Assembly (NCBI RefSeq): GCF_014696105.1
Contig: NZ_JACJPO010000062.1
Coordinates: 1 to 39,808 of the forward strand
Direction: 5' to 3'
DNA: 39,808 nucleotides
DNA from: Microcoleus sp. FACHB-1515
Lineage (GTDB): Bacteria; Cyanobacteriota; Cyanobacteriia; Elainellales; Elainellaceae
Position 1 is the stretch's first letter; every line of letters begins with the position of its first letter. The notes below the pieces were generated by a model. It was not told the origin of the DNA. It saw nothing but the letters and a program-made list of their open reading frames with translations, and ran no database searches. Below, piece after piece: positions 2,367-21,138 of this stretch. The translations under genes and the position numbers were made by a program.

Positions 2367-5300
2367 CTAGCCGTACTCCTCAACGAACCGATGAAGGCTT
2401 CTAATGTGTGCGCGGACTCCAGCACTGAGCCGATCGAGCGCCTGTTGGATGACATCTGCGGCAAATTGCCGTGCAACCTGACGATAATCAGGCGGAACAT
2501 AGCACCGTTGCAGCGCGGCGACTGCTTCAGCAATCCCAAAATTAGGCTCGGATTGCACAAGGGGAGCTGGAACAGCAGCAACGTTGCGATCAACCTCCCT
2601 GACGGCCTTTGCTTCGGGCTGAGTGGGAACAACCGCGATGGCTAACTCCGTAGCGGCCTGCGGCTCAACTGCTACAACAATCGCAGCGGAAGCACTACCC
2701 GTCAGAGGCTTCGGCTGATAAAACTTGTTCCACCAGCCTTGAACGCGCTGCTTCACATCCGGCTCAACTTTCTGGAACTGCCTCATAATCTGCTGGCGCT
2801 GAATCTCAGTGCAGCGCCGGAACTCCTCAAAGAAGCTGGCGATTGCTTCAAGTGAATCGATCGCCGTCAGCACGTTGATCATCTGCTCTAACCACTCAGA
2901 CGACAGCAGCACTGAGGTGGCTTCAAGCTCATGGGAGCGAACCTGTAACGAATCAGTCGCAGTAGGATCAGTCGCTTGCACCTCGATCGCGCTCACTGGG
3001 CACTCTACGGCAGTAGGCGCGGCAATATCGACGGAGGCAAGATTGCCCTGGGCAAGCAAGTCAGGCAGGTTTGAGGGCGATCCTACAAGGGCTGTAGCAA
3101 CATCTAGCGGTGCTGACACTACTCCCTCACTGGCTATAGATCCGATAGGCTCTGCTGTCAGCGATTCGCGATCGGCTTGCCGCTGCGCGTCGGCGCGTAG
3201 CGCTGCGCGATCGCACAGGCGCGAACACTCGCCCGCTGGTTGAACCTCAATCGCGTTGGCGTACTTCTGATTCCACGCCTGCATCACAGCACAGCGATCG
3301 AGTGAATTAAACCCCTTGACTCGGTAGAAGCGAATTTCGCCATCTCCACGTACTTTTGCCTGGTCTAATCCAATTTTGATGAGCAGTCGCCGCACAAATG
3401 AAATCGGATCAGTCGCCTCGCTCACATTCAACTCGAATAGCCGCTGGAGCCGCCAGCGTCTCTGCCGCATAAACTCCATCACGGCGATGACCTGTGGATG
3501 TTCGTTGTGGTATTCCGGTTCATTGAGCAACTCAAGAACGCCGCATTCGCGAATGAATTCCACCTGCTCCAGCTTCAAATGCAAATCGGGTAAGTAGACA
3601 TCGCCATGCTGCCATTTGTAGAGGTTGGATTTCCACTTCTTCGCATCTTGCAGCTTTGCCACTTCAGGATGCTCGACCAGCCAGTAGAGCATTTGAGCAT
3701 TGAGCCAGCGCCGATCGTTGACCTTGCGCTCAAAGACGAATTCAGGTGTGAGCGTCACGCCTGGGAGGAAGTCTTGCAGCAACACCCCTTCGGCCTGGAT
3801 TCGCTGCGGTGTTGTGGCGCTCGAATCGCTTTGAATCGATCGCGCCTCTTCAACGGTCATGTTTGAGTGTGCGCCCTCGCTCAATTGCTCTGCTCGCTCA
3901 AAGCGGTCTCTCTCCTTTTGCCCCTTGATTTCCTGCCCAAACCAGTTGCTCGTCCCTGCCCAGTCGCGAATCTCGCAGTTTTCCATCTCGATGAGTTCCT
4001 GCCGAAGCTGAACGCCACATTGCGGCTTGGCATAGTTGGATCGCGCTTGGATGTTGGCAAGCAAATCAAAGTGAGCATTATTCCAGTTGCCGTCCTGCCA
4101 AAGCGAATTCAGGGCTTGCTTGAAAACTTCAATATCACCATCGGACTCCTCTTTTGCCATTTCAATGGTGAGATCGAAAACAGATTGCGTTCCGCCCGCT
4201 TTGGCATTCTGCCCAATGGTGCGCTTGACCACATCCGGCAGGGGCGATCGGCAACTGCCCATGTAGCTGTCGTTGCGATCGGTTGCCCAAATCGTCAGCG
4301 GCAGGCTGTGGCGCTCACGGGCAATCAGTTGACGAAACTCACATGGTTCAATCACACCAAAGTAGAAGGCGAAGATTTGGGTAAACCAAACCGTCTCGAT
4401 CGACACACCCACTTCCATTGAGGGACTGTAGAGCAGCACTAGGGGCTTGAGCCGTTCGATTTCCGAGTTAATGTATTGGACAAATCGCTTGCCTGCTTCC
4501 TCTTGGGTCGTGGTGGAGTCGATCCGCATGATGCGGCCTGCCAAGTGAGGAAACCGCTCCAGCAACCGCTTCTCGATCGCGACCAGTGCCGCTTGGGAGT
4601 CAGCCGGGATGATGATCGGTTGCTCTCGGCCTGAGAGTGCCATTGCCTCGAAATGCTCATAGATCAGCAGTTCCACGCTGTCTTGCTTCCCGGTGTAAAA
4701 ATCAACCGAGCGCGGCTGCCCCATGTGGTGATTGATGATTGTGAACGTCTTGGCCGTTTGAGGCGCAAGCTTGCGGACGTAGTCTACTTCTACATTTGTC
4801 AAATCTGCATCGCACAAAATGACCAGGCCACCATTGGCGATGATGCGCCGAATCAGTTGCGCCAACATTTTGAGAATCTGTGGCCGACGCTTTTTGACCT
4901 CGGTATTGGCAGTGGCAACGTGCTTTAGCCCCAGCCTGGCCTCGTCAAGAATCAGCACATCCCAGTGCTGGTCGGCAATCTTCCAGAAGCTATCCCAGCA
5001 GCAGCTACCCGCTGGTTGCTGGCTCTGCGCTTCCTCTGTGCTGCCGAGCGCGTCAATCCAGCGCATCTGGAAATTGGAACCGGAAAATTTCTCGCACTGC
5101 TCCAAGCCCAGCACCACACGAGGCGTAATGGATAGGACGCGCTTGCCCTGTTGCACGTAATGCTCGATCGCAGGCTTAAGCATGGCTTTCGACTTGCCTG
5201 ATCCTTTGCGTGAGAGCAAATTGACGATGCCCGTGAGCGGTAGCTTTTGCCAGAGTTCAGGCGGCAAAAACTCACAATCAAGTTCGAGATCGGGTGTCAG

Positions 5301-6446
5301 GGCAAGCGTGTTGAGGTAGCGCTGTGCCCGATCGACGCGCTGCTGATAGCTGGTTGGGGCGGCAGTGGCATCAAGTCCCCCATGCTCGACGGCGATCGCC
5401 GCAAATTCTGCAAAACTCAGGTAGCGAATCTGATCAAACTGCTCAGGCGGCAGTTCGTCAATATCGCATTCTTCCTTAGAAATTTGCCCCCACCAAGCGA
5501 CATCAACCTCATAGCCCAGCTTGATGAGAAAGTCGTGCTGAGTCAGCCAGCGCTGCATCACTGGCTTATTTTTCACGTCTCCAGCATCCGGTGTTAGCCT
5601 CACCCGCTTCAACGTGGGATGGCGATCGAACAGCGTGGCGAGGGTGTGCGTCGTGGTTTCGGGTGAACTCGCAAAGCTGCCATTGGTCGCGCCGAGGACA
5701 AGCGCATTGAGGCGATAGCGGGCAAGGCTGGCTTTGATGGCCGGACTATCGCAGAGCCACACCGCATCGCCTTGAACGGATTCGATCGGCACACACACCG
5801 CGATCGGCATTTCCGTGTCCAAATGCACGGGCGCATTCTGACAAGATACCCAGTGATAGCGCCCGATTGAGCCGTCGCGATGGCGAACCTGAAAGCCAAC
5901 GATCCATCCGTCCACGTCGCGAATCAGGCACAGAATGCCGATCGACTGGACGACCAATTTTCCGTTCTGCGATCGACCGGGGAAGTTGAGCGGGAATCCA
6001 ATCGGCAAGGCTTGCCACCGCTCAACGGTGCAGTAGCCATCGGCTTCAATCCACTCAGGCAAGAAACCACGATCAAGCAGGTGAACGCGATCGATCGCGC
6101 TCAGTGAAAGCGACTGAATCAGTTTGCAATTCCATTTGTCACGATCCACTGCTGGCAGTTGGGCGGCGATTTGGGCGTCCCGTTGTGCCTGCTTCTGCGC
6201 TCGCCTGAGTGCCCGTTCTTGTTCGCGATCGGCCTGCGACTTCTCAGCAAAGGTGGCAGCATTGGCCTCACTTTGCCACATGCCGAAGCCGTTGCGATCG
6301 TGGCCTTTGAAGATCCAGCCGCTCGGATTGGCGGTATCGTCGTGGCAATGCACAAAGCTCGTGAGCGGTGACTGGCGGCAGTCTTTCGCTCTACGTGCGC
6401 CGTTGCAGATGGGGCAATCGCGTTTGAGCCGTTTCCATTTGCTCAT
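2367..6446 (-). CDS. Plasmid replication protein, CyRepA1-like (primase/helicase-type)
   Basis: A 1359-aa protein expected to initiate replication of a cyanobacterial plasmid. The N-terminus has a zinc-binding-like cluster (C11, C14, C23 with nearby His), like a primase zinc finger. Residues about 215-300 look like a Toprim-type DUF3854 segment (VWLCDSPAIKASLARYRLNA, then LTPDAGD). A P-loop, SRKGSGKSK, lies at about 412-420 and a Walker B with VLILDEAR at D501-E502, so a helicase-type ATPase follows. The C-terminal third is Ala/Glu/Val-rich and low in motifs. The start at 6446 has GGAGGTG about 6 bases upstream. The ATG overlaps the stop of the upstream gene (ATGA), indicating translational coupling. 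Domain order matches what I know of the CyRepA1 family; the exact subfamily is inferred. Confidence 0.85.
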   Translation of the reverse strand: MSKWKRLKRDCPICNGARRAKDCRQSPLTSFVHCHDDTANPSGWIFKGHDRNGFGMWQSEANAATFAEKSQADREQERALRRAQKQAQRDAQIAAQLPAVDRDKWNCKLIQSLSLSAIDRVHLLDRGFLPEWIEADGYCTVERWQALPIGFPLNFPGRSQNGKLVVQSIGILCLIRDVDGWIVGFQVRHRDGSIGRYHWVSCQNAPVHLDTEMPIAVCVPIESVQGDAVWLCDSPAIKASLARYRLNALVLGATNGSFASSPETTTHTLATLFDRHPTLKRVRLTPDAGDVKNKPVMQRWLTQHDFLIKLGYEVDVAWWGQISKEECDIDELPPEQFDQIRYLSFAEFAAIAVEHGGLDATAAPTSYQQRVDRAQRYLNTLALTPDLELDCEFLPPELWQKLPLTGIVNLLSRKGSGKSKAMLKPAIEHYVQQGKRVLSITPRVVLGLEQCEKFSGSNFQMRWIDALGSTEEAQSQQPAGSCCWDSFWKIADQHWDVLILDEARLGLKHVATANTEVKKRRPQILKMLAQLIRRIIANGGLVILCDADLTNVEVDYVRKLAPQTAKTFTIINHHMGQPRSVDFYTGKQDSVELLIYEHFEAMALSGREQPIIIPADSQAALVAIEKRLLERFPHLAGRIMRIDSTTTQEEAGKRFVQYINSEIERLKPLVLLYSPSMEVGVSIETVWFTQIFAFYFGVIEPCEFRQLIARERHSLPLTIWATDRNDSYMGSCRSPLPDVVKRTIGQNAKAGGTQSVFDLTIEMAKEESDGDIEVFKQALNSLWQDGNWNNAHFDLLANIQARSNYAKPQCGVQLRQELIEMENCEIRDWAGTSNWFGQEIKGQKERDRFERAEQLSEGAHSNMTVEEARSIQSDSSATTPQRIQAEGVLLQDFLPGVTLTPEFVFERKVNDRRWLNAQMLYWLVEHPEVAKLQDAKKWKSNLYKWQHGDVYLPDLHLKLEQVEFIRECGVLELLNEPEYHNEHPQVIAVMEFMRQRRWRLQRLFELNVSEATDPISFVRRLLIKIGLDQAKVRGDGEIRFYRVKGFNSLDRCAVMQAWNQKYANAIEVQPAGECSRLCDRAALRADAQRQADRESLTAEPIGSIASEGVVSAPLDVATALVGSPSNLPDLLAQGNLASVDIAAPTAVECPVSAIEVQATDPTATDSLQVRSHELEATSVLLSSEWLEQMINVLTAIDSLEAIASFFEEFRRCTEIQRQQIMRQFQKVEPDVKQRVQGWWNKFYQPKPLTGSASAAIVVAVEPQAATELAIAVVPTQPEAKAVREVDRNVAAVPAPLVQSEPNFGIAEAVAALQRCYVPPDYRQVARQFAADVIQQALDRLSAGVRAHIRSLHRFVEEYG

Positions 6447-7340: not shown

Positions 7341-8147
7341 TTAAGAAGTCTTTCGGCTACGTCGTGAAGCTAGATAGCCTCGAATAAAGTCAATAACTTG
7401 CTCTTTCGTGACAAGGGCGGTTGTGCCCATCTTGCGAATCGTCAAGTATTTCTGATCATCCATTGTGACGTACAAATGCTCTGGATGATCTCCCAAAACT
7501 GTCTCTTGCCATAGGACTAGAAGCTTTGCCAGTGGTCGCCGTCTGTCTCTTGCTGATTGTCCAAGCAAGTCGTACCGCTGCCGTCTTAGCCATCGTTCCT
7601 GTTCCGCTAGTTCAAATAAGGGATCAGGTTCCCATGTCTTTGATCCACCTCCTTTTTTCCGAAACCGTAATGCTTCTCGCTCCTCGTTGTAGGTGACTTT
7701 TGCATCTCCTAGCGAGCGAATTTGAATGAGAACGTATTCCTTGTCTGAGAATCGCAGGAAAAAATCGATTTCTCGCAAGCCCTCCGGTTTGAGTCCAATC
7801 TCGATCGCCACGTTCTCATCTTCAAGCGCTTCCATCAGTTCTGTCATCAGAAAGAAGCGCTGGCTCGTCGTCTGGAGTTCCCCCAGTAGCGAACTTAATG
7901 CTGGTAGTGCAGCCATCGCTGTGAATAAAGGACTCAGCAGAATAAATCCTGCTATTCCTCCTAAGCCAGCAGCGGCGCAGGCAAGGGAAAGTCGGTCTCG
8001 CTCTTGCTCTAGCTGCCTCAGTTTGGCTTGATTTTCTTGTGCAAACTCTCCCACAACAAAGCCGAATTGAAGGCCATCCTCTATTCTCGCTTGCAGCCTG
8101 TAGCCTTGAATCAGTTCCAGTTGCGGTGGGGTTGAGTAGGCAAACAC
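7341..8147 (-). CDS. Hypothetical membrane-associated protein with possible nuclease-like domain
   Basis: This 268-aa protein follows the Uma2 gene with a 4-base gap, so the two are probably one transcript. Residues about 37-52 form a charged helix, followed by a long Ala/Gly/Leu-rich hydrophobic stretch (about 53-88) that could be one or two membrane helices. The next part (EIDFFLRFSDKEYVLIQIRS) resembles the beta-strand pattern of PD-(D/E)XK folds, but a canonical E-x-K is missing, so activity is doubtful. The C-terminus is basic. The start is a GTG at 8147 with GGGGGA about 7 bases upstream. Family not recognised. Confidence 0.65.
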   Translation of the reverse strand: MFAYSTPPQLELIQGYRLQARIEDGLQFGFVVGEFAQENQAKLRQLEQERDRLSLACAAAGLGGIAGFILLSPLFTAMAALPALSSLLGELQTTSQRFFLMTELMEALEDENVAIEIGLKPEGLREIDFFLRFSDKEYVLIQIRSLGDAKVTYNEEREALRFRKKGGGSKTWEPDPLFELAEQERWLRRQRYDLLGQSARDRRRPLAKLLVLWQETVLGDHPEHLYVTMDDQKYLTIRKMGTTALVTKEQVIDFIRGYLASRRSRKTS

Positions 8148-8151
8148 CGTT

Positions 8152-8733
8152 CTATCCCCCGATCGCGCGACGGAACTCTTTGTATGCCTCGATTCTGGAC
8201 GTTTCCGCCATCAGCACACACCGCGCTAACAACTGAATGTCGAGATCGCGCAAGTGTGGAAGCTCACTGCGGTAGATGCGTTCGTAGCCCTGCTCTCGCA
8301 GGTGATGCAGCGTGAATAGGCCATCTTCCCAAAACCAGACCTCCGACACGCCAAGCGCCTGATAGCGCTCCAGCTTGTTTACCCGATTGGTGAAGACCAC
8401 CTCGATCGACAGGTCTGGAACGGACTTTTTGATTCCAACCCAGTAAGACTCGTCAGCTTGGGCGGCTGCCGTGCCGACTTTTTCTTGCGTCATTGATCCA
8501 GCCGGAATAAATTCAACCCCACGCTGCATCAGAAACAGTTCGACGAGAAATCCAATAATGGTTTTGAAAAACTCGTGATTTTCTCCAGGCATCAATACCT
8601 CAATCGTGCCGTTGTAATAGGACAACCGCACGTTGGGAAAGCCTTCTAAGCCCTTTTGAATGTGCTTGAACTGCTCCCAGGTGCGATCGGGGTAGACCGT
8701 GACTTGATCGGTTTTTTCGAGTAGCTGTGTCAT
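8152..8733 (-). CDS. Uma2 family (DUF820) PD-(D/E)XK endonuclease
   Basis: This 193-aa protein has the Uma2 hallmarks in order: TWEQFKHI, then LSYYNGTIEVLMPGENHE, then QADESYWVG, PDLSIEVVFT and KLERYQALGVSEVW. The acidic residues around PDLSIEVV and the following K/Y helix form the expected nuclease site. The family is strongly expanded in cyanobacteria, with unclear biological roles. Length is normal, so the gene looks intact. The ribosome binding site is weak (GGAGCG, about 12 bases upstream). It sits between a coiled-coil gene and the 7341-8147 membrane protein on the same strand. Confidence 0.9.
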   Translation of the reverse strand: MTQLLEKTDQVTVYPDRTWEQFKHIQKGLEGFPNVRLSYYNGTIEVLMPGENHEFFKTIIGFLVELFLMQRGVEFIPAGSMTQEKVGTAAAQADESYWVGIKKSVPDLSIEVVFTNRVNKLERYQALGVSEVWFWEDGLFTLHHLREQGYERIYRSELPHLRDLDIQLLARCVLMAETSRIEAYKEFRRAIGG

Positions 8734-9850: not shown

Positions 9851-10102
9851 ATGGAGCCAAGAGAGTTTGTGTCGAAGTGGGGCATAACGCGAGATGAACT
9901 TGCCTCTTTAACCTCTAAGTCTCTACCGACAGTCAATCGCTGGTTTGCTGACGAGGCAAAGCGTGATCCAGGGGCAGAAGTGTTAACGCTCCTCGCTTCG
10001 ATCGATGCCTTATGGACTGCTCGTGCCTCCCTAGATGGGCTGCCTAGCCATATTTGGGCGGTCTACACCTTAGCTATGGCTCGAAAAAGAATATCAAACT
10101 GA
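9851..10102 (+). CDS. Small helix-turn-helix DNA-binding protein
   Basis: This 83-aa protein has an XRE-like helix-turn-helix in its first half (FVSKWGITRDELASLTSKSL, then PTVNRWFADEAKRDPG). The second half is helical (EVLTLLASIDALWTARASL). It starts 2 bases after the GNAT-like gene. A small DNA-binding protein paired with a GNAT-fold protein recalls GNAT toxin-antitoxin modules, but those usually have the antitoxin first and of ribbon-helix-helix type, so this is only a possibility. It could regulate through the TTGATAAA sites at 9112 and 10112-10128. Confidence 0.65.
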   Translation: MEPREFVSKWGITRDELASLTSKSLPTVNRWFADEAKRDPGAEVLTLLASIDALWTARASLDGLPSHIWAVYTLAMARKRISN

Positions 10103-10213: not shown

Positions 10214-11041
10214 ATGGAAATGCAGACAGCGCCTAGCTTTGGGCGCACAGATTCGATTGTCATTCCATTCCCCGGACAGCCAGCGGAATCGCTCGCTAGC
10301 CGTCCGCAGGACAATCCCTCGGACTCACCCCGGACAGAATCAGGACGCACCTACACCTTCAAGCAAGCGGCTGAACTACTGGAGTGTGGGGACGAATCGA
10401 CTCTACGCAATCGCTACTGGAAGCAAAAAGTTGAGCCAGCCTTTCGCCACTGCCCGACACCGCTGCAATCGATCGCCAAATACGACACCAACGGCAACCC
10501 GATTTATCGCTTGAACGAGACTGCGATCGAGGTGCTACGGGCGTTTCTGACGGCAAAAGCCGAAGGCCGCGACGATGCGTTTCTAATGGCCGCAAGAGAG
10601 CAATTTCCCGCTCCTTTGCCACCCAATCAGCAGGAAGCGCAATCGCAGCCTCAGCGAGAAATCAACGTTGAAACAAAGGCCGCGATCGTTGTGGACACGC
10701 CCGCTCTACCGCAGACTTACTCGCTGGCAGCGCTCACCGGAGAGGCGATCGAGATTAATGATCCGATGGCTCTGGCAACGCAAATCGTGCAGGCGATCGA
10801 TCACGTCCAAACCGCCATGCAAACCGACATCGAGCGCAAAGAACAGAAGCTCAATGAGACTCGCAAAGCCAAAGAAATCGTCAGCAACAAAGTGCAGGAA
10901 TTGAAGCTCGATCAGCGCTTCTATCAGGAGAAAAATTCACAACTGAGCCAATCGCAAACCTCGGATACGCAGGCATTGCAGGAGTTGGCAGCGTTTATGC
11001 AAGCGTTGGGAAAGCCCCCCGCCGCTTCCCCCGCTGGTTAA
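10214..11041 (+). CDS. HTH plus coiled-coil protein, possibly with a frameshifted membrane tail
   Basis: This 275-aa protein heads the large plasmid block. Residues about 46-110 resemble a MerR/winged-helix DNA-binding domain (YTFKQAAELLECGDESTLRN, then YWKQKVEP). A Pro/Gln-rich linker follows, and residues about 195-260 form a coiled coil (HVQTAMQTDIERKEQKLNET, then SNKVQELKLDQRF). It ends with KPPAASPAG at the stop. The start at 10214 follows TGGAGTACAACCT, so GGAG lies about 9 bases upstream. A -1 reading frame beginning at the CCCCCC run (11015-11020) adds a basic stretch and a transmembrane helix, described separately. Family not recognised. Confidence 0.75.
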   Translation: MEMQTAPSFGRTDSIVIPFPGQPAESLASRPQDNPSDSPRTESGRTYTFKQAAELLECGDESTLRNRYWKQKVEPAFRHCPTPLQSIAKYDTNGNPIYRLNETAIEVLRAFLTAKAEGRDDAFLMAAREQFPAPLPPNQQEAQSQPQREINVETKAAIVVDTPALPQTYSLAALTGEAIEINDPMALATQIVQAIDHVQTAMQTDIERKEQKLNETRKAKEIVSNKVQELKLDQRFYQEKNSQLSQSQTSDTQALQELAAFMQALGKPPAASPAG

Positions 11042-11190
11042 TCGGCAGTGCGATCGCGCTGGCTGTGTGTGCAGTGGCGATCGCCTTCTGGCTCCAGTTT
11101 TCACCCCGCTCCAAACAGCAAAGCCCCCACCCGCAAAGTTTCTCAGCTTCACCAATTGGCGATCGCCTCAGTCAAGTTCTCTTAATTTGA
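11020..11190 (+). other. Open -1 frame encoding a transmembrane tail without its own start
   Basis: From the second CCC of CCCCCC (11015-11020), a -1 shift enters a frame open to the TGA at 11188-11190. It reads RRFPRWLIGSA, then IALAVCAVAIAFWLQF, then a polar tail ending SQVLLI. This is a textbook basic anchor plus one membrane helix. No ATG or GTG with a ribosome binding site serves this frame. Either it is made by ribosomal frameshifting, or the C-tract carries a frameshift mutation or sequencing error and the real protein is a single 320-330-aa membrane protein. Confidence 0.55.
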
Positions 11191-11203
11191 AGGAGTTCAA
11201 ACC

Positions 11204-11320
11204 ATGCGACAAATCATTTTCGGAGTCTTGCTGGTCTTTTTGCTGATGTGGTTCTGGGATGGCAAACCAATTGACAATCAGCCTTCCGGTAACGATCAGC
11301 CGCCCGTTTCACTTCAGTAG
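11204..11320 (+). CDS. 38-aa single-pass membrane peptide
   Basis: The peptide starts MRQIIFGVLLVFLLMWFW and ends in a polar Asn/Gln/Pro-rich tail. Residues 4-18 form one membrane helix; the N-terminus is short and basic, so it may sit Nin-Cout or be a signal anchor. AAGGAG lies about 8 bases before the ATG, the best ribosome binding site in this block. It begins 13 bases after the -1-frame membrane tail ends, so the two are probably co-transcribed. Function unknown; a small subunit of an envelope complex is one possibility. Confidence 0.6.
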   Translation: MRQIIFGVLLVFLLMWFWDGKPIDNQPSGNDQPPVSLQ

Positions 11321-11381
11321 CACCGTTCACTTTTTCCAGTTTTGGCCTTCACATTCAACCCACTTCACCTATTAACTTGTC

Positions 11382-11552
11382 ATGGCAAGAAACTCGAACA
11401 ACTCCAACAGCAACCTCACGATCGAATCGTTCTTCATCACGCTTTTAGCCTTCTTCGCAGTGCTGGGATTGCTGCAAAAAACGGGTGCAATTTCCAACGC
11501 CGATGTGCAGCAGGCGAATCCACTGCGGCAACCGCAAGTGCAGTCGTATTGA
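11382..11552 (+). CDS. 56-aa single-pass membrane protein
   Basis: It begins MARNSNNSNSNLTIES, has one hydrophobic helix (FFITLLAFFAVLGLL, residues 17-31), and ends in a Gln-rich tail. It is translated in the frame opposite in sense to nothing else convincing and fits between the 38-aa peptide and the 260-aa protein, all on the plus strand. The ribosome binding site is weak. Together with the neighbouring peptide and membrane tail it forms a run of small single-helix proteins. Coding status rests on composition and context. Confidence 0.5.
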   Translation: MARNSNNSNSNLTIESFFITLLAFFAVLGLLQKTGAISNADVQQANPLRQPQVQSY

Positions 11553-11597
11553 TTTTGCCGAAGCTCAAAAATCACACCCCATCGGAGAAATAAACTC

Positions 11598-12380
11598 ATG
11601 CCACGCTCACGCCGCAATCAGCCCGAACCCGAACCCGCGCGCGACTTTCCGACCGATGTAGACTTCGATTTCACGCCGCCCCAGAGCAGCGAGAATCAGC
11701 CCACACCTCAGCCGCAATCGAACGTGAGGCCGTTTCCCTCACTGCCGACTGTGCCGCGATCGCCTCACCTGAATCTGCCCGAAGTCGAAGGGCTAGAGCG
11801 GATTTTGCAAACGCCCGATCTCAACTTCACGATGCCCGATTTCGTGGGTGCTGTACCCACTGATTTATATCGGCCTTCATCGAGTTCCATTCCTGAAGTC
11901 ACCGATGAAGAATACCAGCGCGAATCGAAAATCGGCGCAAACAAACTCAATGCGGTCAAACTGCAAAATCAGTCGCTTTTGATTGTGGAAGAAGAGTCAA
12001 AAGGTGCTGTGATTGCCTCGCGCATTGCAGGCAATGTCGCCACTGCCCTCGTGAACTTCCGCAAGGCTCAGGTGAACTACTTAGTCGGCATGGAAGCGGC
12101 AGATATCGCTTATGAAGTCGGAACTGCCAAGAACGCCGAAACGCGCACGAATGGCTTCAAGGAAGTGTCGATCCTGCAAGAGAAGGGTCGATCGCTCGAC
12201 GAGCGATTCCGAGGCGCACAAATCAAAACGAATTTAGAGCGCGAAAAGAACGCCAACTCTCAGCTTGAGGTGAATCAGCAAATCCGCATCCGCCCAGTGA
12301 TCCAAGACAAACTTGATGCGGAGTTTGAACTGTTGAAGAATAGCGCCGCAGAAGCGCGGCAAAAGCTCAGCTACGGCTAA
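11598..12380 (+). CDS. Hypothetical helical protein of the plasmid block
   Basis: This 260-aa protein has a Pro/Gln-rich, probably disordered N-terminal third (residues 1-100, with PEPEPARDF and PQPQSNVRPF). The rest is a long, highly charged helical region from about residue 105 to the end (EYQRESKIGANKLNAVKLQN, then RGAQIKTNLEREKNANSQ). GGAGAAATAAACTC precedes the ATG. A middle stretch, GAVIASRIAGNVATALVNFR, could be a weakly amphipathic or membrane-contacting helix. I do not recognise it. Its position just before the coiled-coil ATPase suggests a structural partner of that protein. Confidence 0.65.
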   Translation: MPRSRRNQPEPEPARDFPTDVDFDFTPPQSSENQPTPQPQSNVRPFPSLPTVPRSPHLNLPEVEGLERILQTPDLNFTMPDFVGAVPTDLYRPSSSSIPEVTDEEYQRESKIGANKLNAVKLQNQSLLIVEEESKGAVIASRIAGNVATALVNFRKAQVNYLVGMEAADIAYEVGTAKNAETRTNGFKEVSILQEKGRSLDERFRGAQIKTNLEREKNANSQLEVNQQIRIRPVIQDKLDAEFELLKNSAAEARQKLSYG

Positions 12381-12390
12381 TCCTAGTCAC

Positions 12391-12415
12391 TGCCCCTAGA
12401 ACGCTTCTAGGGGCA
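12391..12415 (+). promoter_or_regulatory. Intercistronic hairpin with 11-bp perfect stem
   Basis: TGCCCCTAGAA (12391-12401), loop CGC, TTCTAGGGGCA (12405-12415). It lies in the 45-66-base gap between the 260-aa gene and the ATPase gene. There is no T-tract after it, so it looks more like an mRNA-stability or attenuation element than a full terminator. Confidence 0.6.
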
Positions 12416-12446
12416 CACCGCCCTGTTGTGGAGCATTTTCAAGGCC

Positions 12447-14792
12447 ATGAAACTCACGCTTAAACATCAACTGGCAATCTTAGGCGGGTCTGTCTCGACA
12501 GTGGGGGCGATCGCCTTCTGCTTCGGCTACTGGACGAATCCCACAGCGAAACTCTCACCCTTGCTGCTCTCCTACGCTTTGGGTGTTGGCTCGGTCGCGG
12601 CTGTCGCTGTTGCCCGCGATCGCAGTGGCGAACTCAAGCTAGAAGTATCCAGACTCAAGGCCGCACTCGATCGGCTCCAAGCCAAGCTCGATGAAGAGTA
12701 CCAGGATAAGCAGCAGACCACTCAGGCGGCGATTCAAGCGCAAAACAAAGTCGAGAAGCTGCAAGAGCGTGTCGGCAGGTTGCAGGCTGATTTAGACGCG
12801 GCTGAGGGCAAAAATCAAGAGTGGATGATTGCCGCGAATCAAACTGCTGATGCTGTCCAGACGTTGAAAGCAAAGCTGACTGAGGCGCAATCAGAACTCG
12901 ATCGCACAGTGGCACACTACCAGAGCGCCGATCGCAAGGAGAACCACATTGCCGTCAAGCAACAGGTCGATGAAATTCGATCGCGCCTGGTGGCTGTGCA
13001 AAATCGCAAGGCTGAGGCGTGGCAAGAAGCTCAGCAGCAGAAGATTTACACCGAACTGGGCAAACAGCAAGCGCGGGTCGATGAACTGGTGCAAGCGGTT
13101 GATCGGCTGACGGCTGAAGTTGAGCAACTGACGGCTGAAAACGAAAAGCTGATTGAGGAAAATAAGCAAGCTGGACGCGACTTCTACGCAATCGAGCATG
13201 AAGCGTTGCCGAAGATTCAGCATACCTACGAAACCGATCTCAAAGACTGGGAAAGTCAGGTGAATCGATCGCTTGACGATCTGCGAGCGGCCAATGTGCA
13301 GCAGCAGCAACAAATCGCGCAACTGGAAGCGCCCCGATTGTTTCGCGGTGGCACATCGATCGATGACGTGGGCAACCGCATCATCAAGCACTTTGGAGAA
13401 GCGGGCGTGATTTTTGATGCGATCGAGTCGGTGATGTTCCCTGGCGGCTGGCGGCTGAAGTTCAAGGTCGATCGCAACGCCGATAGCACCCGTTTAGCAC
13501 AGTCAGAGTTGGATAAGCACCGCGAACACTTGGGACTGTGGGGATTGTCGCAACGCCCGCTCGACTTCGTCTTAGACACGCGCAACTTCATTGTGAGTGT
13601 GGATTTGTTCAGCGCTCCCGACAGCGGCAGAGCGCGGCCTGCGTCTGCTGCCAGTAGTGCGGGAGTTCCCACTGCGATCGCCCCCCCTGCCAGTGGTGAA
13701 GCGGCGATCGCCCCTGCTCCCCATGCAGATCGCTTTCAGGAACTCGGCTGCTACAGCGCGGCAGAGTTTGAGTCAGTGGTCAGGCTCAAATTTGTTCCCC
13801 GTGTGCGGGTTGTCGCAGGTTCCACAGGTGGCAAATCGCCGCTGCTGGAATTAATTACTTGTGCGATCGCCCGTAGTCAGGGCGGCGAAATTTGGCTGAT
13901 CAACCCCATCCCCGGCAGTCCGAAAGATTGGTTTCACATCCCTGGTGTGATTGCCCCTGGCTGCAATGGCATCGAGGCGGCGATCGCGTGGTTGGGCAAA
14001 GCACACCAAGAATTCGAGCAACGGCGCAACGATCTTCCCGGTGCGGCAGAGAAGCACTTCATTACGGTCATGGTCGATGAGATTAATGCGATCGCCCGTG
14101 ACTATGCCGAATTAGGCACGGTAATGAAAGATTTCTATCAACTTTCCGACCATACCAAGATGGGCTTTTTGACCGCAGGACAAGGCGGTAATGTTTCCGG
14201 TGTGAGCGGTGGATCGAAGGCCACAGCAAAAACAGGAAATGCGGCAAAGCTGATGGAAGAAGACTTTCAAAATGCCACACAAGTTTTCACAGCAGCAGCG
14301 GCAAAAACTTGGATTAAGAAGCAGCTAAAAGGAGTGGAAGCAACGCCCTATCTCGATCGGCTTTCGGCGTTGAATCGGTTATGTGAAGAACTGAATGAAG
14401 CTGAGAATAAATCAGCTTATCCGCGTGATCCTGCTACAAAAAAAGTATCACCCGATGCGTATCGGATTGCTCTAGTTGTATCTCCAAGAGAGGCAGAACC
14501 CTTCTTCATTCAACTGCCTCCGTACAGCAGCTATCGCGATCGCATGGCTGGAATTAGCTATCCCAAAAATGCGATCGTGACCGCTCCACAGGCACATCAA
14601 GTGGAGTTAGGATTGCTCGCTTCATCCAACAGCTTGCCAGACGATTTTACCTGCGTTCACTGCGGTCATCATAGCAAACGGCGCAAGGGAACTTACGCAG
14701 ATGGCACACCGAAATATGTGTGCAGTTCATGTAGCCGCGCTACCGCCCGTCTGGACGCTGCAATCGAGACGCCCAGGACGGACACCCCGTAA
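12447..14792 (+). CDS. Membrane-anchored coiled-coil FtsK/HerA-like ATPase with C-terminal zinc finger
   Basis: This protein of about 781 aa has two N-terminal membrane helices (ILGGSVSTVGAIAFCFGYW and LLLSYALGVGSVAAVAVA). A long coiled coil (about 60-270) contains DRLQAKLDEEYQDKQQTTQA and repeated Glu/Gln/Lys heptads. The ATPase domain has P-loop VAGSTGGKS at 458-464 (where FtsK/TraD/HerA proteins usually read GxTGSGKS) and Walker B ITVMVDEINAI at D544-E545. A zinc ribbon ends it: C736, C739, C759, C762. FtsK/HerA relatives pump or translocate DNA or coupled substrates, so a role in plasmid transfer, segregation or defence is plausible but unproven. Start choice is uncertain: ATG 12447 has only AAGG close by; an in-frame TTG lies at 12426. 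Confidence 0.8.
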   Translation: MKLTLKHQLAILGGSVSTVGAIAFCFGYWTNPTAKLSPLLLSYALGVGSVAAVAVARDRSGELKLEVSRLKAALDRLQAKLDEEYQDKQQTTQAAIQAQNKVEKLQERVGRLQADLDAAEGKNQEWMIAANQTADAVQTLKAKLTEAQSELDRTVAHYQSADRKENHIAVKQQVDEIRSRLVAVQNRKAEAWQEAQQQKIYTELGKQQARVDELVQAVDRLTAEVEQLTAENEKLIEENKQAGRDFYAIEHEALPKIQHTYETDLKDWESQVNRSLDDLRAANVQQQQQIAQLEAPRLFRGGTSIDDVGNRIIKHFGEAGVIFDAIESVMFPGGWRLKFKVDRNADSTRLAQSELDKHREHLGLWGLSQRPLDFVLDTRNFIVSVDLFSAPDSGRARPASAASSAGVPTAIAPPASGEAAIAPAPHADRFQELGCYSAAEFESVVRLKFVPRVRVVAGSTGGKSPLLELITCAIARSQGGEIWLINPIPGSPKDWFHIPGVIAPGCNGIEAAIAWLGKAHQEFEQRRNDLPGAAEKHFITVMVDEINAIARDYAELGTVMKDFYQLSDHTKMGFLTAGQGGNVSGVSGGSKATAKTGNAAKLMEEDFQNATQVFTAAAAKTWIKKQLKGVEATPYLDRLSALNRLCEELNEAENKSAYPRDPATKKVSPDAYRIALVVSPREAEPFFIQLPPYSSYRDRMAGISYPKNAIVTAPQAHQVELGLLASSNSLPDDFTCVHCGHHSKRRKGTYADGTPKYVCSSCSRATARLDAAIETPRTDTP

Positions 14793-14800
14793 AAACGGGG
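14785..14800 (+). promoter_or_regulatory. Hairpin overlapping the ATPase stop codon
   Basis: CCCCGT (14785-14790), AAAA loop, ACGGGG (14795-14800). The ATPase stop TAA at 14790-14792 is inside the hairpin. No T-run follows, so it may slow translation termination or protect the mRNA end rather than terminate transcription. Confidence 0.4.
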
Positions 14801-14816
14801 ACGAACGAGACAGTCT

Positions 14817-14832
14817 GCCGGAGTTTGCCGGA
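14817..14832. repeat. Paired GCCGGA direct repeat (copy 2 of 3 loci)
   Basis: GCCGGA-GTTT-GCCGGA, 14 of 16 bases identical to 2200-2215. It lies in the 160-base non-coding gap between the ATPase and nuclease genes. Confidence 0.45.
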
Positions 14833-14953
14833 CTTTTGCACGGCTCAAAGCTGCGCTCATTGCGACGTTTTCGGCTCATGCGTCCAGCCGTGTCCAGCCT
14901 GAAACGTCTCGCCGCCTCGATCAATGTCCACCAGAAAAGCTTGAGGCATTCAC

Positions 14954-15475
14954 ATGGAATTCAATAGCGAAAGAGAACTACAAGACTACTGCTTAGAAGT
15001 GCTGCGATCGAAAGGCATCCAGGCGCGTGAAGAGGTCTGGTGTGGTGGACTCCGCGCCGATATTGTGATCGATCGCGCCGTTATTGAACTGAAAAAAACG
15101 CTCACCAGAGACGCCATCTTTCAAGCAGTTGGACAGGGAGAGCGATATCAGAAAAGGCTAAAAAAAGATGAACTTTGGATTGTCGGACAAACGCCAAAAG
15201 ATTACGAGTCAGCTAGGAGCGCACTGCATACAGCTAGAGAACTGGCGAAAGAAGGAATTCGCGTCTCATTTGTCGATCGAGATGCGTACTGGCAGGCAGG
15301 TTCATACCAGTCTTCTATGCCGCAATTGCCGCAAATCTCATTCGATTGGATTGAGCAATATCGAGTTGCGCTTGCAGTTGGCTTCATTATTCTCACTCTG
15401 CTGGTGTGGGATGGAAAAACTCGACCTGCTAGAGAGCCAATTCGTGATACGCCTTTCACAACGATTCATCTTTAA
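14954..15475 (+). CDS. Membrane-anchored PD-(D/E)XK nuclease
   Basis: This 173-aa protein carries a PD-(D/E)XK nuclease core: RADIVID with D36, then IELKK with E45-x-K47, then a Gln helix, AVGQGERY (Q61). The family usually cuts DNA or RNA. Residues about 137-152 (RVALAVGFIILTLLVW) form a C-terminal membrane helix, tethering the nuclease to the cytoplasmic side. The start has GAGG about 7 bases upstream. Its 3' end overlaps the next gene by 65 bases. It follows the coiled-coil ATPase, so the two may form a membrane complex acting on DNA entering or leaving; the target is not known. Confidence 0.75.
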   Translation: MEFNSERELQDYCLEVLRSKGIQAREEVWCGGLRADIVIDRAVIELKKTLTRDAIFQAVGQGERYQKRLKKDELWIVGQTPKDYESARSALHTARELAKEGIRVSFVDRDAYWQAGSYQSSMPQLPQISFDWIEQYRVALAVGFIILTLLVWDGKTRPAREPIRDTPFTTIHL

Positions 15476-15806
15476 GTCTCTCAATTCTCAGTTTCAGCCC
15501 TGCTTTGAAGTGATTTGTGCTGCGTTTTCTGTGATTTGTTTTGCTGCGATTCTGCTATTTTTAAGCCTTGCTTCTAGTGCTGGAGTCAGCCCGATCGCGC
15601 TGTTGTTCGGTCGCTTTACGATCGCCTTGAGCGGGTTAAATAGGCAATTGCCCTCGCTGGACGAGGCTACGGTGATTGGGGTGCTGCAAGCAGGTGATCC
15701 CGTGCGGCTTACTGGCTGGGTTGCTCAAGGGGATGGTGTGACGTGGGTGAAGGCGATCGCTGCTGCTCAGTATCCCAATCAAGTCGGTGATCAAAGGCCA
15801 TTGTGA
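15411..15806 (+). CDS. Membrane protein with SH3b-like extracytoplasmic domain
   Basis: From the ATG at 15411 (131 aa) there is one membrane helix (FEVICAAFSVICFAAILLFL, then SLASS) followed by a segment like a bacterial SH3 domain: ATVIGVLQAGDPVRLTGWVA, then GDGVTWVKAIA. SH3b domains often bind cell-wall peptides or proteins. The first 22 codons overlap the end of the nuclease gene in another frame. A longer open frame back to 15168 runs through the nuclease and is judged a shadow, since its N-terminus has no family-like features. The ribosome binding site is unclear. Confidence 0.6.
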   Translation: MEKLDLLESQFVIRLSQRFIFKSLNSQFQPCFEVICAAFSVICFAAILLFLSLASSAGVSPIALLFGRFTIALSGLNRQLPSLDEATVIGVLQAGDPVRLTGWVAQGDGVTWVKAIAAAQYPNQVGDQRPL

Positions 15807-15885
15807 TGATCGGGTCGATCGCTGGTTGTCGTGATGGAATTGAGTATGCGGCACAATCTTAGAACGGGTGTTGGAGGTCAAGGCT

Positions 15886-16092
15886 ATGCTGTCAGAATTT
15901 GAAGCCTTTGCGCGAGAGTGGGAAACTGCGGAGCGATCGCGCCACACCCGCTTATTGGAGCAATTGCGGCGCGAGTATCGAGAATCGCCGCAAGTTTCCG
16001 CTCCGGGCGAGATTGCGATCGATGCACCCTACTCAGTGCGGTTGCCCCGTGCCGTTTCTCTTCAGCAGGTGAAGCCAAAACTTAATGACTAG
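15886..16092 (+). CDS. Small helical hypothetical protein
   Basis: From the ATG at 15886 (68 aa), with GGAGGTC about 7 bases upstream, this reads MLSEFEAFAREWETAERSRH, then an Arg-rich helix and a polar tail. It lies 79 bases after the SH3b-like gene. Family not recognised. The start at 15868 is less likely because it lacks a ribosome binding site. Confidence 0.5.
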   Translation: MLSEFEAFAREWETAERSRHTRLLEQLRREYRESPQVSAPGEIAIDAPYSVRLPRAVSLQQVKPKLND

Positions 16093-16399: not shown

Positions 16400-17440
16400 A
16401 TGTGGCAGTTTGACAGCGAACTCAGTCTCGAAGCCTTTGTGAATGTTCATCTGCTGACGCTGCTCGATCTCAGTCCATTAGCGCGGCAGTTCTTTATCAA
16501 TTCCCAAGTCTGCGACATTTTAGCGGTCAGCCCTCAAAGGCAACTGACCATTCTGGAGTTGAAAAACACCGAGGATCGCTACATTGTTCAGCAGCTAACC
16601 CGCTACTACAGCGCCATTCTCACGCATAAGCCATTTGCAGACCAAGTCGATTACAGCCTGCCGATTCGCTTGGTGGCGGTCGCGCCAAACTTCCACGCGC
16701 ATAACTTCATCGATCGCCAGTACAGCCAACTTTTGTTTGAATTTTTCATCTTTGAGGTGCAATCCCAGTCTGAGCAGTTTCAGTTTTGTCTGACCCAGCC
16801 GGATGGTAGTTTGATCCGCTGCATTGACATTCCAAGCGCCTTTCACGCCACGCTCATGAACATGGCTCTCCCTGCGCCTATCGAAGTCGAGCGCAAACTG
16901 CCGCCACCGCCCAAATCGCTCCGCCAACTGGTGGAAACGCTGGCTCCAACAGAGCAAGACTACGTGCTGCAATTGCGGCAGCAAATGCTGATGTTCAGCG
17001 ATCAGATGCAGGAAGTCGGACGAACGACGAGCACTCAGTACGGCTTGCGGAAGGGAGAAAAGGATCTCTACAAAACGAAGCTCTGCGCTCAGTTCGTCCC
17101 GTTCTACTCCGGGAGCGATCGCCCCTGTCTCATGTTGCAGTTGCCTTACCCGAAGAAAGAGTTTGGCGCTCCCGGACGGCGATTTAAGCCAGAACGAGTC
17201 AAAGGGCTAACGTGGACGCAGGTATCGCATCAAAAGGACTTGTGGAATTGCACCGCGCCGATTCAACTGTTTTCGTATCTGGGTAAGACGCGAAACTACC
17301 ACAGCTATTCCTACGACCTGAACACTTATGCTCAGATGTACTTCGACCTGACAGGGCAAGAGCGCAAACTGCGATCGATCGCAGATGTTGTTGATTTGGC
17401 GCTCGGTGAGTGGCAGCAGAACCTCACAACGGCGAAGTAA
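16400..17440 (+). CDS. PD-(D/E)XK nuclease-like protein
   Basis: This 346-aa protein has an N-terminal nuclease-like core: VCDILAV with D39, ILELKN with E53-x-K55, then a helix with Q64 and RYY (68-70). This D...ExK...QxxxRY pattern matches the NucS/DUF91 and RecB-like nuclease group. The second half is unrecognised, with a basic middle (KGEKDLYKTKLCAQFVPFYS) and many aromatic residues near the C-terminus. Start at 16400; the ribosome binding site is weak. It stands alone after a hairpin. It might be a DNA-repair or defence nuclease; target unknown. Confidence 0.7.
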   Translation: MWQFDSELSLEAFVNVHLLTLLDLSPLARQFFINSQVCDILAVSPQRQLTILELKNTEDRYIVQQLTRYYSAILTHKPFADQVDYSLPIRLVAVAPNFHAHNFIDRQYSQLLFEFFIFEVQSQSEQFQFCLTQPDGSLIRCIDIPSAFHATLMNMALPAPIEVERKLPPPPKSLRQLVETLAPTEQDYVLQLRQQMLMFSDQMQEVGRTTSTQYGLRKGEKDLYKTKLCAQFVPFYSGSDRPCLMLQLPYPKKEFGAPGRRFKPERVKGLTWTQVSHQKDLWNCTAPIQLFSYLGKTRNYHSYSYDLNTYAQMYFDLTGQERKLRSIADVVDLALGEWQQNLTTAK

Positions 17441-20330: not shown

Positions 20331-20567
20331 ATGTCTATTTACAATGGTGAGCCGATCGAGCCGCCGCCCCAACGCTGGAGCCGAGCGCAACAGCTTGAAT
20401 TGCTGATGTGGCATCCGCTCTTTACGGGGTTGTGTCCGCAGTGCCGCTATCAGTTTGAGCAGGGGAGCGATTGGTGGGATTGTCCTGAATGTGGGTGGAA
20501 GGATGAGGTGGGGCGATCGCTGCCTCTGCGTTCTATACTGGGTAAATTACATTTCAAGAAAAATTGA
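20331..20567 (+). CDS. Small zinc-ribbon protein upstream of arsR
   Basis: This 78-aa protein has one zinc ribbon: CPQCRYQFEQGSDWWDCPEC (two CxxC pairs). The rest is polar and unrecognised. Its TGA overlaps the ATG of arsR (TGATG), so the two are translationally coupled. The relation to arsenic is by position only; the Cys pairs could bind zinc or, speculatively, arsenite. No clear ribosome binding site lies upstream of 20331. Confidence 0.65.
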   Translation: MSIYNGEPIEPPPQRWSRAQQLELLMWHPLFTGLCPQCRYQFEQGSDWWDCPECGWKDEVGRSLPLRSILGKLHFKKN

Positions 20568-20890
20568 TGTCGAAGCAGTCCACCCTCGCATCCAATGCAA
20601 TTGCTGCTGGCTTTCATGCGCTTTCGGAACCGCTGCGTGTGCAAGTCCTGGATCTGCTGCGAACCAAAGAACTGTGCGTGTGCGACTTGTGTGAGGCATT
20701 GAACCTGCCACAGTCGAAGCTGTCATTTCACCTCAAGGTGCTGCGGGAAGCTGAGCTAGTGCGATCGCGCCAAGCAGGACGCTGGATTTACTACAGCCTG
20801 AATCTGCCGCAATTTGTTGTGCTGGAGCAGTACCTCGCGGAATACCGCCGCTTCAGCCCGATTGTGCCTGCTCGTCCTTGCAGTGACTAA
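20567..20890 (+). CDS. arsR: ArsR-family arsenite-responsive repressor
   Basis: This 107-aa protein is an ArsR/SmtB winged-helix repressor. The metal-binding motif ELCVCDLC (C37, C39, C42) lies in the alpha-3 helix as in classical arsenite sensors, and the recognition helix reads PQSKLSFHLKVLREAELV. Arsenite binding to the Cys triad would release it from DNA. The second start, ATG at 20567, is chosen over a TTG at 20564 because it overlaps the preceding stop. An ATCAA-N6-TTGAT operator lies just downstream of the gene at 20971-20986, controlling the aquaglyceroporin operon. Confidence 0.93.
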   Translation: MSKQSTLASNAIAAGFHALSEPLRVQVLDLLRTKELCVCDLCEALNLPQSKLSFHLKVLREAELVRSRQAGRWIYYSLNLPQFVVLEQYLAEYRRFSPIVPARPCSD

Positions 20891-20963
20891 GCTTTCTATC
20901 AAATTTTTTAGAATCGAAGTCTAAATTTTTGTTGACAAAGCTCCTCTGCCTCAGTCTAACTGC

Positions 20964-20998
20964 TTGACTCATCAACATAATTTGATGTATCAATATTT
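20964..20998 (+). promoter_or_regulatory. Candidate ArsR operator/promoter of the ars operon
   Basis: ATCAA-CATAAT-TTGAT (20971-20986) matches the ArsR/SmtB imperfect-palindrome pattern. It overlaps a second palindrome TTGAT-GT-ATCAA (20982-20993). A TTGACT (-35 like, 20964-20969) lies before it and TATCAA (-10 like, about 20988) overlaps it, with an 18-base spacer. Another TTGACA lies at 20932-20937. A repressor here would block the promoter. Confidence 0.55.
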
Positions 20999-21062
20999 TT
21001 AGATGTGATATAAAGACCACATCAACACTTCAGCAGGTGCAAATCCTGCGTGGAGGAGACTT

Positions 21063-21125
21063 ATGGCTGCTGCGATCCGACCTCGACGGAAAAGAGCGGA
21101 CATTCTAGCGATCGCAATTCATTGA
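21063..21125 (+). CDS. 20-aa open frame with strong ribosome binding site (leader peptide?)
   Basis: ATG 21063 has GGAGGAG about 5 bases upstream, the best ribosome binding site in the ars region, and encodes MAAAIRPRRKRADILAIAIH. It ends 13 bases before the aquaglyceroporin ATG, which has only a weak site, so translation of the peptide may feed the channel gene. It could instead be the 5' scar of a lost gene. Small size makes this uncertain. Confidence 0.35.
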   Translation: MAAAIRPRRKRADILAIAIH

Positions 21126-21138
21126 TTGAGCTGAAAAG

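Follow-up and report, generated by a model that had tools for sequence, protein, structure and literature searches.

An FtsK-like membrane ATPase and its partner P260 form a recurring gene pair on cyanobacterial plasmids that carry telomere resolvases

We analysed a contig of 39,808 nucleotides (NZ_JACJPO010000062.1, here the window; contig C59) from the 5.8-Mb genome of the cyanobacterium Microcoleus sp. FACHB-1515, and find that a plus-strand gene block on it contains a conserved unit of two genes followed by a variable nuclease slot. The two genes encode P260, a 260-amino-acid protein, and an FtsK-like ATPase with predicted membrane helices; the P260 gene lies directly 5′ of the ATPase gene in 54 of the 62 loci with enough sequence for a profile search. 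A sequence-only reading of the block had proposed a membrane-bound DNA-handling module on plasmids, and the comparisons below support this: the P260-ATPase neighbourhood is conserved rather than scattered, and the pairs usually have a CyRepA1-type replication gene (Rep) on the opposite strand, divergent and upstream of the block in 41 of the 51 loci that have at least 7 kb upstream. New relative to that reading is the tie of the module to plasmids with telomere resolvases. We tentatively suggest that the module is a relaxase-independent, membrane-anchored pump of double-stranded DNA (dsDNA) for plasmid transfer, comparable to TraB and TdtA and a member of neither family.

The open reading frames (ORFs) that had been listed for the block are all present on the plus strand. 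Transmembrane (TM) helices, here and throughout, were called by a simple hydropathy scan, which finds them in five of the block's proteins where at least four had been expected. The features are as follows.

10214..11041, plus strand: helix-turn-helix (HTH)/coiled-coil protein of 275 amino acids, first gene of the block; HTH by inspection only
11204..11320, plus strand: ORF of 38 amino acids with a single TM helix; AAGGAG ahead of the start
11382..11552, plus strand: ORF of 56 amino acids with a single TM helix
11598..12380, plus strand: P260, 260 amino acids, with a low-complexity N-terminus and a helical C-terminus (by inspection); alignments A2 and A6
12447..14792, plus strand: FtsK-like ATPase of 781 amino acids, with two TM helices, long coiled coil, motor, and zinc ribbon; ATG at 12447
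13716..14573, plus strand: ATPase motor domain, model residues 423-708; Walker A GSTGGKSP, Walker B MVDE
14652..14732, plus strand: C-terminal zinc ribbon of the ATPase, CxxC...CxxC, at the position of the FtsK gamma domain
14954..15475, plus strand: PD-(D/E)XK-like nuclease with C-terminal TM helix; motif DIVID..IELKK, TM helix from residue 133 by hydropathy
15510..15806, plus strand: ORF with a TM helix and an SH3-like part; GTG start assumed
15868..16092, plus strand: ORF of 74 amino acids, with relatives near block copies L020 and L019

Locus counts refer to 68 non-redundant loci on the stretches fetched, with profiles built from clusters of the same loci; the duplicates L100, L107, L111, L114, L122, and L123 were left out, as was L125, in which no ATPase ORF clustered. 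A single-protein query detected ATPase relatives in 7 of 60 genomes, own genome counted; a profile search matched 43 of 388 genomes of the class, the weak matches around E 1e-4 to 1e-3 probably reflecting coiled-coil noise. The named genome collection yielded 41 loci with ATPase relatives, and PLSDB 13 records by tblastn, NZ_AP014645.1 being a near-duplicate of NZ_AP014641.1; a Niallia match that covers only the zinc ribbon, in a transposase, was excluded. The P260 cluster spans 61 loci (34 rows in alignment A6). Eight loci without P260 were kept as misses in the pairing count, including L065 and L067, where a P260 gene is present and overlaps an over-long ATPase ORF call, L106, where transposase genes interrupt the ATPase gene, and L082, where the ATPase gene is split. 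P260 has no informative family in Pfam, PHROGs, or NCBIfam, and its profile has no match in the PDB. The module contigs L067 and L096 are filed under Woesearchaeota and a Flavobacterium metagenome-assembled genome; they look like misbinned pieces of cyanobacterial plasmids, and the L067 contig is nearly identical to a Drouetiella locus.

The ATPase, described from the sequence as a two-helix coiled-coil FtsK-like protein with a zinc ribbon, indeed has an FtsK-type fold and motifs. We used window positions 12450-14789 as query (Met omitted), and residue numbers follow this query; the family alignment A5 has 39 rows, namely the window and 38 of the 41 named-genome loci, without L061 and L069 (both split) and L084 (near-duplicate). 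An AlphaFold model built from A5 has a confident motor at about residues 423-708 (predicted local distance difference test, pLDDT, mostly 85-96) and long helices at 59-159 and 166-293 with a break between them. A Foldseek search with this model places FtsK motors at the top (6t8g_C, E 8.8e-8), followed by TcpA of the conjugative plasmid pCW3 (E 1.8e-4). In structural comparisons with VIA the ATPase aligns to FtsK 2ius with Z 12.5 and 3.7 Å over 210 residues, and to TcpA 6o1y with Z 12.9 and 4.0 Å over 210 residues; Z is 12-13 for FtsK, TcpA, and EccC and about 12 for HerA, and HerA-effector complexes (SIR2/HerA and HerA-DUF4297) are among the fold matches. The Walker A motif ends GK[ST]P in 39 of 39 rows, Walker B D543 and E544 are invariant in A5, and so are the zinc-ribbon cysteines C735, C738, C758, and C761. 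The ribbon stands in place of the FtsK-type C-terminal gamma winged-helix domain, which is absent from A5.

None of the libraries searched gives this protein, or the set of genes around it, an informative name, as the sequence-only reading had anticipated. Scans of the ATPase against Pfam, PHROGs, and NCBIfam return only coiled-coil or zinc-ribbon noise: no FtsK model is among the 25 most widely matched of the 76 Pfam families found for the 39 members, PF01580 (FtsK_SpoIIIE) is not listed for the window ATPase, and Pfam zinc-ribbon models match up to 18 of the 39. PADLOC finds coiled-coil matches only (LmuB, JetC), and a PDB sequence search with the ATPase profile finds coiled-coil and zinc-finger chains among the best 60 of 357 matches. 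Because its modelled fold is that of FtsK and its motifs are intact, yet no library match is informative, we consider that the ATPase belongs to the FtsK-HerA superfamily, probably outside any named family of these libraries. Among the BFVD fold matches are viral packaging ATPases of the FtsK-like and A32-like kinds, together with an uncharacterised 712-amino-acid protein of a phage of the cyanobacterium Nodularia (E 2.1e-6).

The membrane nuclease is a recurring, optional, and exchangeable partner of this pair. In the window nuclease D36, E45, and K47 are invariant in alignments A3 (six rows) and A7 (five rows). Its model, from five alignment rows, has a mean pLDDT of 61.5, and it matches a CdiA-CT toxin (4zqu_A, Z 8.0), NucS/EndoMS (7.0-6.5), PaqCI (6.5), and XisH (5.8), with several restriction enzymes in the top 20; since these matches are only middling (the tool so rates Z below 8), the D..ExK motif carries the PD-(D/E)XK assignment. 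Pfam, PHROGs, and NCBIfam hold no informative family for it: it matches phrog_5928, whose function is unassigned (E 2.9e-5), and a PDB search with its profile gave eight weak matches (best E 0.43). Of the C-terminally tethered PD-(D/E)XK nuclease originally described, the motif and the TM helix thus stand, the fold is modelled at low confidence, and a tethered nuclease recurs near the ATPase in 25 of the 68 loci.

Elsewhere the slot has other occupants. Thirteen loci hold a GIY-YIG protein of the T5orf172/MUG113 type (GIY19), L101 and L113 have a GIY-YIG gene between the P260 and ATPase genes, and rarer occupants are other GIY-YIG or HNH-like proteins. A single C-terminal TM helix is present in 7 of 7 PD-(D/E)XK proteins and 13 of 13 full-length GIY19 proteins, one match to a 36-amino-acid fragment being without it; both sets were gathered by homology and hence carry no selection bias for TM helices. 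One HNH and two HNH-like nucleases were found by filtering small proteins with a C-terminal TM helix near the ATPase, and their helices and those of two GIY22 proteins are not independent evidence, because the helix was the selection criterion; six further members of the GIY22 cluster, encoded elsewhere or fused differently, have none. The HNH assignments were made by inspection, Pfam finding nothing and the HNH-like protein having no PDB profile match. As background, proteins with a single C-terminal TM helix account for 32 of 396 called ORFs of 120-240 amino acids, some nucleases among them. In the ATPase tree (64 rows, proteins shorter than 480 amino acids left out) the PD-(D/E)XK and GIY-YIG types both occur at several separate positions; a number of its rows carry a long-branch flag. 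What lies downstream can vary even among near-identical ATPases of a single clade: L067 has an HNH-like protein with a TM helix, L065 a three-TM protein, and L066 another. The three-TM protein (L065:12584-13156, downstream of the ATPase) has a weak match, below cut-off, to PycTM, a Pycsar effector.

Exchangeable nuclease folds beside a constant motor, the different downstream genes of L065, L066, and L067, and the HerA-effector complexes among the fold matches could all indicate defence or plasmid competition, in which the pump would feed incoming or rival DNA to a membrane nuclease and the effectors would be exchanged. We consider this unlikely. PADLOC finds only coiled-coil matches for the ATPase, nuclease-domain matches for one GIY-YIG protein, and weak ones for a 346-amino-acid neighbour; the module lies beside Rep and not in a cargo region; several co-resident plasmids each keep their own copy; and 43 of the 68 loci are without a nuclease of the kinds sought.

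The remaining block genes are less constant, so that of the whole gene set once taken as a unit the P260-ATPase core holds, the nuclease is exchangeable, and the tiny membrane peptides drop out. We rejected these peptides as a conserved component. The 38- and 56-amino-acid ORFs have no homologue in 14 other loci (tblastn, E 0.05), and single-TM ORFs occur upstream of P260 in 27 of 58 loci, against 29 of 58 for the antisense strand and 114 of 290 for random stretches; L060 and L019 have unrelated-looking single-TM ORFs at this position. Judged by sequence, the two ORFs are probably outside the conserved set. The ORF described as a membrane SH3b-like protein exists and has its TM helix, and its SH3 assignment is weak (Pfam SH3_3, E 0.028, below cut-off): its best support is a 41% tblastn match (E 3e-8) to the C-terminal part of an Oculatella nuclease-SH3 fusion (L078), which itself matches SH3_3 below cut-off (E 0.0059). 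The HTH/coiled-coil protein has no informative family in Pfam (nothing above cut-off), PHROGs, or NCBIfam; it is 72-73% identical in the sister genome, and elsewhere its slot holds different or very diverged proteins. The 74-amino-acid ORF matches ORFs near the L020 and L019 blocks (phmmer, E 2.8e-21 and 5.2e-21).

All 12 complete ATPase plasmids tested carry a telomere resolvase gene (PF16684; the near-duplicate NZ_AP014645.1 was not among the 12), and one lies on the fetched stretch in 34 of the 68 loci; RefSeq already annotates a "protelomerase family protein" on these plasmids. Among nine further telomere-resolvase records, which were hand-picked (AP018300, NZ_CP040279, NZ_CP040290, and AP018283 are among those not taken), five have a divergent ATPase gene within about 1.5 kb of the resolvase gene, one is ambiguous, and three (W17, W20, and W21) have none. 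The linear record pNPM10, with inverted ends of 957 base pairs (bp), has the gene order P260, ATPase, GIY-YIG with TM helix, telomere resolvase. Palindromes lie where records join or contigs end in L029, L103, L105, L112 (both ends), L094, C56, G026:C76, and G002:C120, and most records or contigs with palindromes or halves of them (L135 also has these) show telomere resolvase genes as well; in C56 this gene adjoins the terminal palindrome. The core CCGTTAATTTAAATTAACGG occurs in L029, across the junction, and in L103, and its halves at two pNPM10 ends. In place of a palindrome, L102 (Rivularia pRIV7116.01) has a perfect inverted repeat of 1095 bp around position 5343, such as reading through a hairpin end might produce. 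A terminal palindrome was not found in L100 or at the ends of pLBY (deposited linear), and L101 has short internal ones only; in the sister-genome contig C231, which carries a close relative of the window block, the telomere resolvase gene is near the start and the end pieces read contain no palindrome.

Because of the resolvases in 12 of 12 plasmids and the palindromic ends on several records and contigs, the module appears to mark linear hairpin plasmids. Such plasmids appear to be common among filamentous cyanobacteria, and several of the records are deposited as circular. The window contig, which is incomplete, has neither a telomere resolvase gene nor a terminal palindrome; we infer that its plasmid, too, is linear. 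Those cyanobacterial hosts whose genus is named are filamentous; two tested telomere-resolvase plasmids from unicellular hosts (W20 and W21) are without the module, as is W17 from Nostoc.

The resolvase in every complete ATPase plasmid tested, the module in five of the nine further records, and cluster 6 (217-amino-acid proteins from 15 loci, the one in L101 being a PF00589 tyrosine recombinase) would also accord with maintenance of linear replicons, motor and nuclease processing replication products or multimers together with the resolvase and the small recombinase. The resolvase records without the module mean that telomere resolution does not need it and, to our knowledge, known hairpin replicons manage without such a motor; we regard this explanation as improbable.

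A PF03432 relaxase is present in 2 of the 12 complete ATPase plasmids and missing from 10, so that the module is independent of the relaxase; clear membership of a known conjugation system would have refuted the sequence-only reading. TrwC is absent from all 12, and Mob_Pre has no match in them, with a positive control that was silent too. Across 25 plasmids (a small sample, hand-picked and mutually related, in which channel genes of type IV secretion systems were not searched for) PF03432 is present in 2 of the 17 that have the ATPase and in 7 of the 8 that do not (Fisher p 5e-4). The comparison includes five circular controls picked from the best 60 of 192 Rep tblastn matches, all of which carry a relaxase, and excludes W19, a 505-kb plasmid of L. 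boryana whose match (E 4e-17) spans model residues 19-378, mainly coiled coil, with no motor. This exclusion between relaxase and module is a lead, not proof. MOB-suite types 12 of the 13 PLSDB ATPase records as non-mobilizable. Small plasmids carry the module too, among them one of 17.5 kb in Nostoc sp. UHCC 0870 and one of 16.4 kb in Calothrix sp. PCC 7716, the 16.4-kb plasmid retaining it beside its own ParM-like protein.

The main rival to transfer is segregation: when the cell divides, motor and P260 would position or pull linear hairpin plasmids, either unaided or together with downstream-encoded ParM/ParR-like or ParA-like proteins, and the nuclease would be an accessory. The module adjoins Rep, and FtsK itself acts in chromosome segregation. 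In many Nostocales loci the ATPase gene is followed by a ParM-like gene (phrog_691 partition protein; ALP_N below cut-off; annotated "ParM/StbA") and by a small gene that looks, on inspection, like a ribbon-helix-helix protein; among the 68 loci a ParM-like gene is found in 26, a ParA-like gene in 10, and either in 34. The other 34 show neither on the fetched stretch, so that there the module neither replaces nor requires them, and linear replicons elsewhere use ordinary ParA/B. ParA, ParM, or TubZ as the motor itself is ruled out for this ATPase, whose motor has the FtsK fold. A membrane-tethered nuclease would be unexpected in a segregation machine, and the opposed distribution of relaxases would be left unexplained; we hold segregation to be somewhat unlikely.

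Copies within one genome suggest what the motor may contribute. The Microcoleus genome has a second block on contig C56, in which P260 is 69% and the nuclease 79% identical to the window; identity of the ATPase is 37-48% in anchor and coiled coil, 24-28% in motor segments, and 20% in the zinc ribbon. In the sister genome the corresponding values against the window are 87-90%, 74-83% (motor), and 61%. Because the C56 motor is far more diverged than P260, nuclease, and anchor, the comparison suggests that the motor was exchanged while the membrane platform was kept, and that the motor carries whatever must differ between co-resident plasmids. Four plasmids of Fischerella sp. NIES-4106 each have a copy of the module, one of them truncated, which points to action on the module's own plasmid.

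A genome-packaging ATPase of a phage-plasmid or satellite would account for the BFVD matches to viral packaging ATPases and the Nodularia phage protein, and for TerL-like genes in 9 of the 68 loci. We think this very improbable: 59 loci are without TerL, no relative was confirmed in phage records or IMG/VR, and an anchor of two TM helices with a coiled coil would seem ill-suited to a packaging motor. Phage origin was rejected as a candidate, a tblastn search with one query finding no match in 50,697 phage records and two IMG/VR scans confirming no relative. Genes resembling terminase large subunits are found on L029, L077, L081, L102, L103, L133, and L134, several with a small HTH protein, and a PHROGs scan of 10 proteins from L102 and L103 found no capsid family.

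We favour plasmid transfer, tentatively, because a membrane FtsK-like motor on small, mostly relaxase-free plasmids best matches TraB and TdtA. In such a mechanism the ATPase would form a hexamer at the membrane, and P260 and the ATPase coiled coil would build a platform; motor and zinc ribbon may select the plasmid's own DNA, and the nuclease may trim or cut DNA at the base of the pump. The pump would then drive the intact plasmid, usually linear and hairpin-ended, into the next cell along the filament or into some other cell, with the plasmid supplying neither relaxase nor type IV channel. A dsDNA pump would make sense here because the single strand made by a relaxase is ill-suited to covalently closed ends. 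A broader and more doubtful possibility is that filamentous cyanobacteria pass linear hairpin plasmids between cells as dsDNA through a dedicated machine that needs no relaxase and consists of P260, pump, and exchangeable tethered nuclease, and that this is a conjugation type of its own, one that might suit DNA without free ends on plasmids typed as non-mobilizable.

Several observations weigh against transfer and the picture built on it. The TM helices of the window ATPase are poorly modelled (residues 1-56, pLDDT below 50), a TraB-like winged-helix recognition domain is absent with the zinc ribbon in its stead, and the tethered nuclease accompanies the ATPase in only 25 of 68 loci. Near the window ATPase there is no clt-like repeat cluster: only GCGATCGC-type motifs cluster there, and repeat clusters on some other plasmids do not share positions. 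Both relaxase and module are carried by pLBY and the NIES-3755 plasmid, and the ParM- or ParA-like genes of 34 loci could place the module with segregation. Among the five additional ATPase genes, that of W18 has an internal stop codon. Small membrane proteins of the Spd kind are not enriched, single-TM ORFs being no more numerous upstream of P260 than in the antisense and random comparisons. The low identity of the C56 motor could reflect fast evolution instead of exchange, and its row in the tree is flagged as a long branch. The tie to filamentous hosts is weak, and kinship of the hosts may explain it.

The genes flanking the block on the window are the following.

2367..6446, minus strand: CyRepA1-like plasmid replication protein of 1359 amino acids, divergent from the block
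7341..8147, minus strand: one-TM protein of the "mem268" cluster (cluster 8, 12 loci), between Rep and the block; no Pfam match
8152..8733, minus strand: Uma2-family protein (PF05685, E 2.8e-7)
9851..10102, plus strand: small HTH_3/Xre-like regulator (PF01381, E 4.8e-4, below cut-off)

For Rep, Pfam gives only DEAD, below cut-off; by tblastn it matches PLSDB records, several of them annotated "plasmid replication protein, CyRepA1 family". Uma2-like genes are frequent neighbours of the block across loci. Downstream of the block and outside the conserved set, a protein of 346 amino acids (16400-17440) has a NucS_C-like match below cut-off. Genes at positions 20564-39802 match a low-molecular-weight phosphatase, FMN reductase, MFS transporter, aquaporin, and DUF305, and inspection adds probable cation-efflux proteins; this part of the contig may be a region for resistance to metals or metalloids. 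The first ~110 bases of the window are identical to the start of contig C45 of the same genome and are probably a shared insertion sequence that interrupted the assembly. On C45 there are a PF03432 relaxase, genes that look ParA-like on inspection, and a short telomere-resolvase piece.

Plasmids typed as non-mobilizable nonetheless keep a constant, energy-driven membrane DNA machine. If the module transfers DNA, genes would flow among cyanobacteria by a route so far hidden, and the module might serve as a tool for filamentous strains that are hard to transform; if it segregates DNA, it would be a partition motor of an unexpected kind. The telomere-resolvase tie also opens linear cyanobacterial plasmids to experimental tests of their biology. 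Among the open-access papers listed by our searches, no title or abstract opening describes this module or such cyanobacterial plasmids (most subscription journals lie outside this scope); one of the papers, on hairpin telomeres, refers to cyanobacteria in its text (PMC3558466). The terms "linear", "telomer", and "ATPase" do not occur in extracts of one CyRepA1 paper (PMC10899382).

The module shares with FtsK/SpoIIIE the motor fold, the Walker motifs, and membrane helices ahead of the motor, and differs in its long coiled coil, C-terminal zinc ribbon, plasmid location, and constant P260 partner. With HerA-NurA and HerA-effector pairs it shares the combination of motor and nuclease, and HerA complexes are among its fold matches. 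HerA, however, is a soluble protein to whose ring the nucleases attach directly; in the module, membrane helices are predicted for both motor and nuclease, and the ATPase is not identified as HerA by PADLOC. In the Thermus TdtA-NurA system we know of no P260. According to extracts of its description, TdtA too is a membrane ATPase of the FtsK-HerA superfamily with a nuclease encoded by the adjacent gene, and needs this NurA-like neighbour for efficient transfer; in contrast to our ATPase, it was fitted to HerA, its nuclease is different, and its element is inserted in a tRNA gene (PMC5365140). TcpA of pCW3, which the module ATPase matches at Z 12.9, is reported in extracts of one source to be nearer FtsK than VirD4-type proteins (PMC12857230). 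It works for an apparatus like a type IV secretion system, with a relaxase (extracts of PMC5365140 and PMC12857230), whereas 10 of the 12 complete ATPase plasmids are without PF03432; type IV channel genes were not searched for in this comparison. Streptomyces TraB, as portrayed in extracts of two papers, is likewise a single FtsK-fold membrane translocase, moves dsDNA, and resides on small plasmids without relaxase or type IV secretion system (PMC12857230; PMC3218068). The likeness of a relaxase-free plasmid with one membrane FtsK-like translocase holds for most relatives of the window block, the window plasmid being incomplete. TraB reads 8-bp clt repeats through a C-terminal HTH; our ATPase lacks that domain, and clt repeats were not found in the window. 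The module further differs in its cyanobacterial hosts, its linear plasmids, and the tethered nuclease that accompanies it at many loci.

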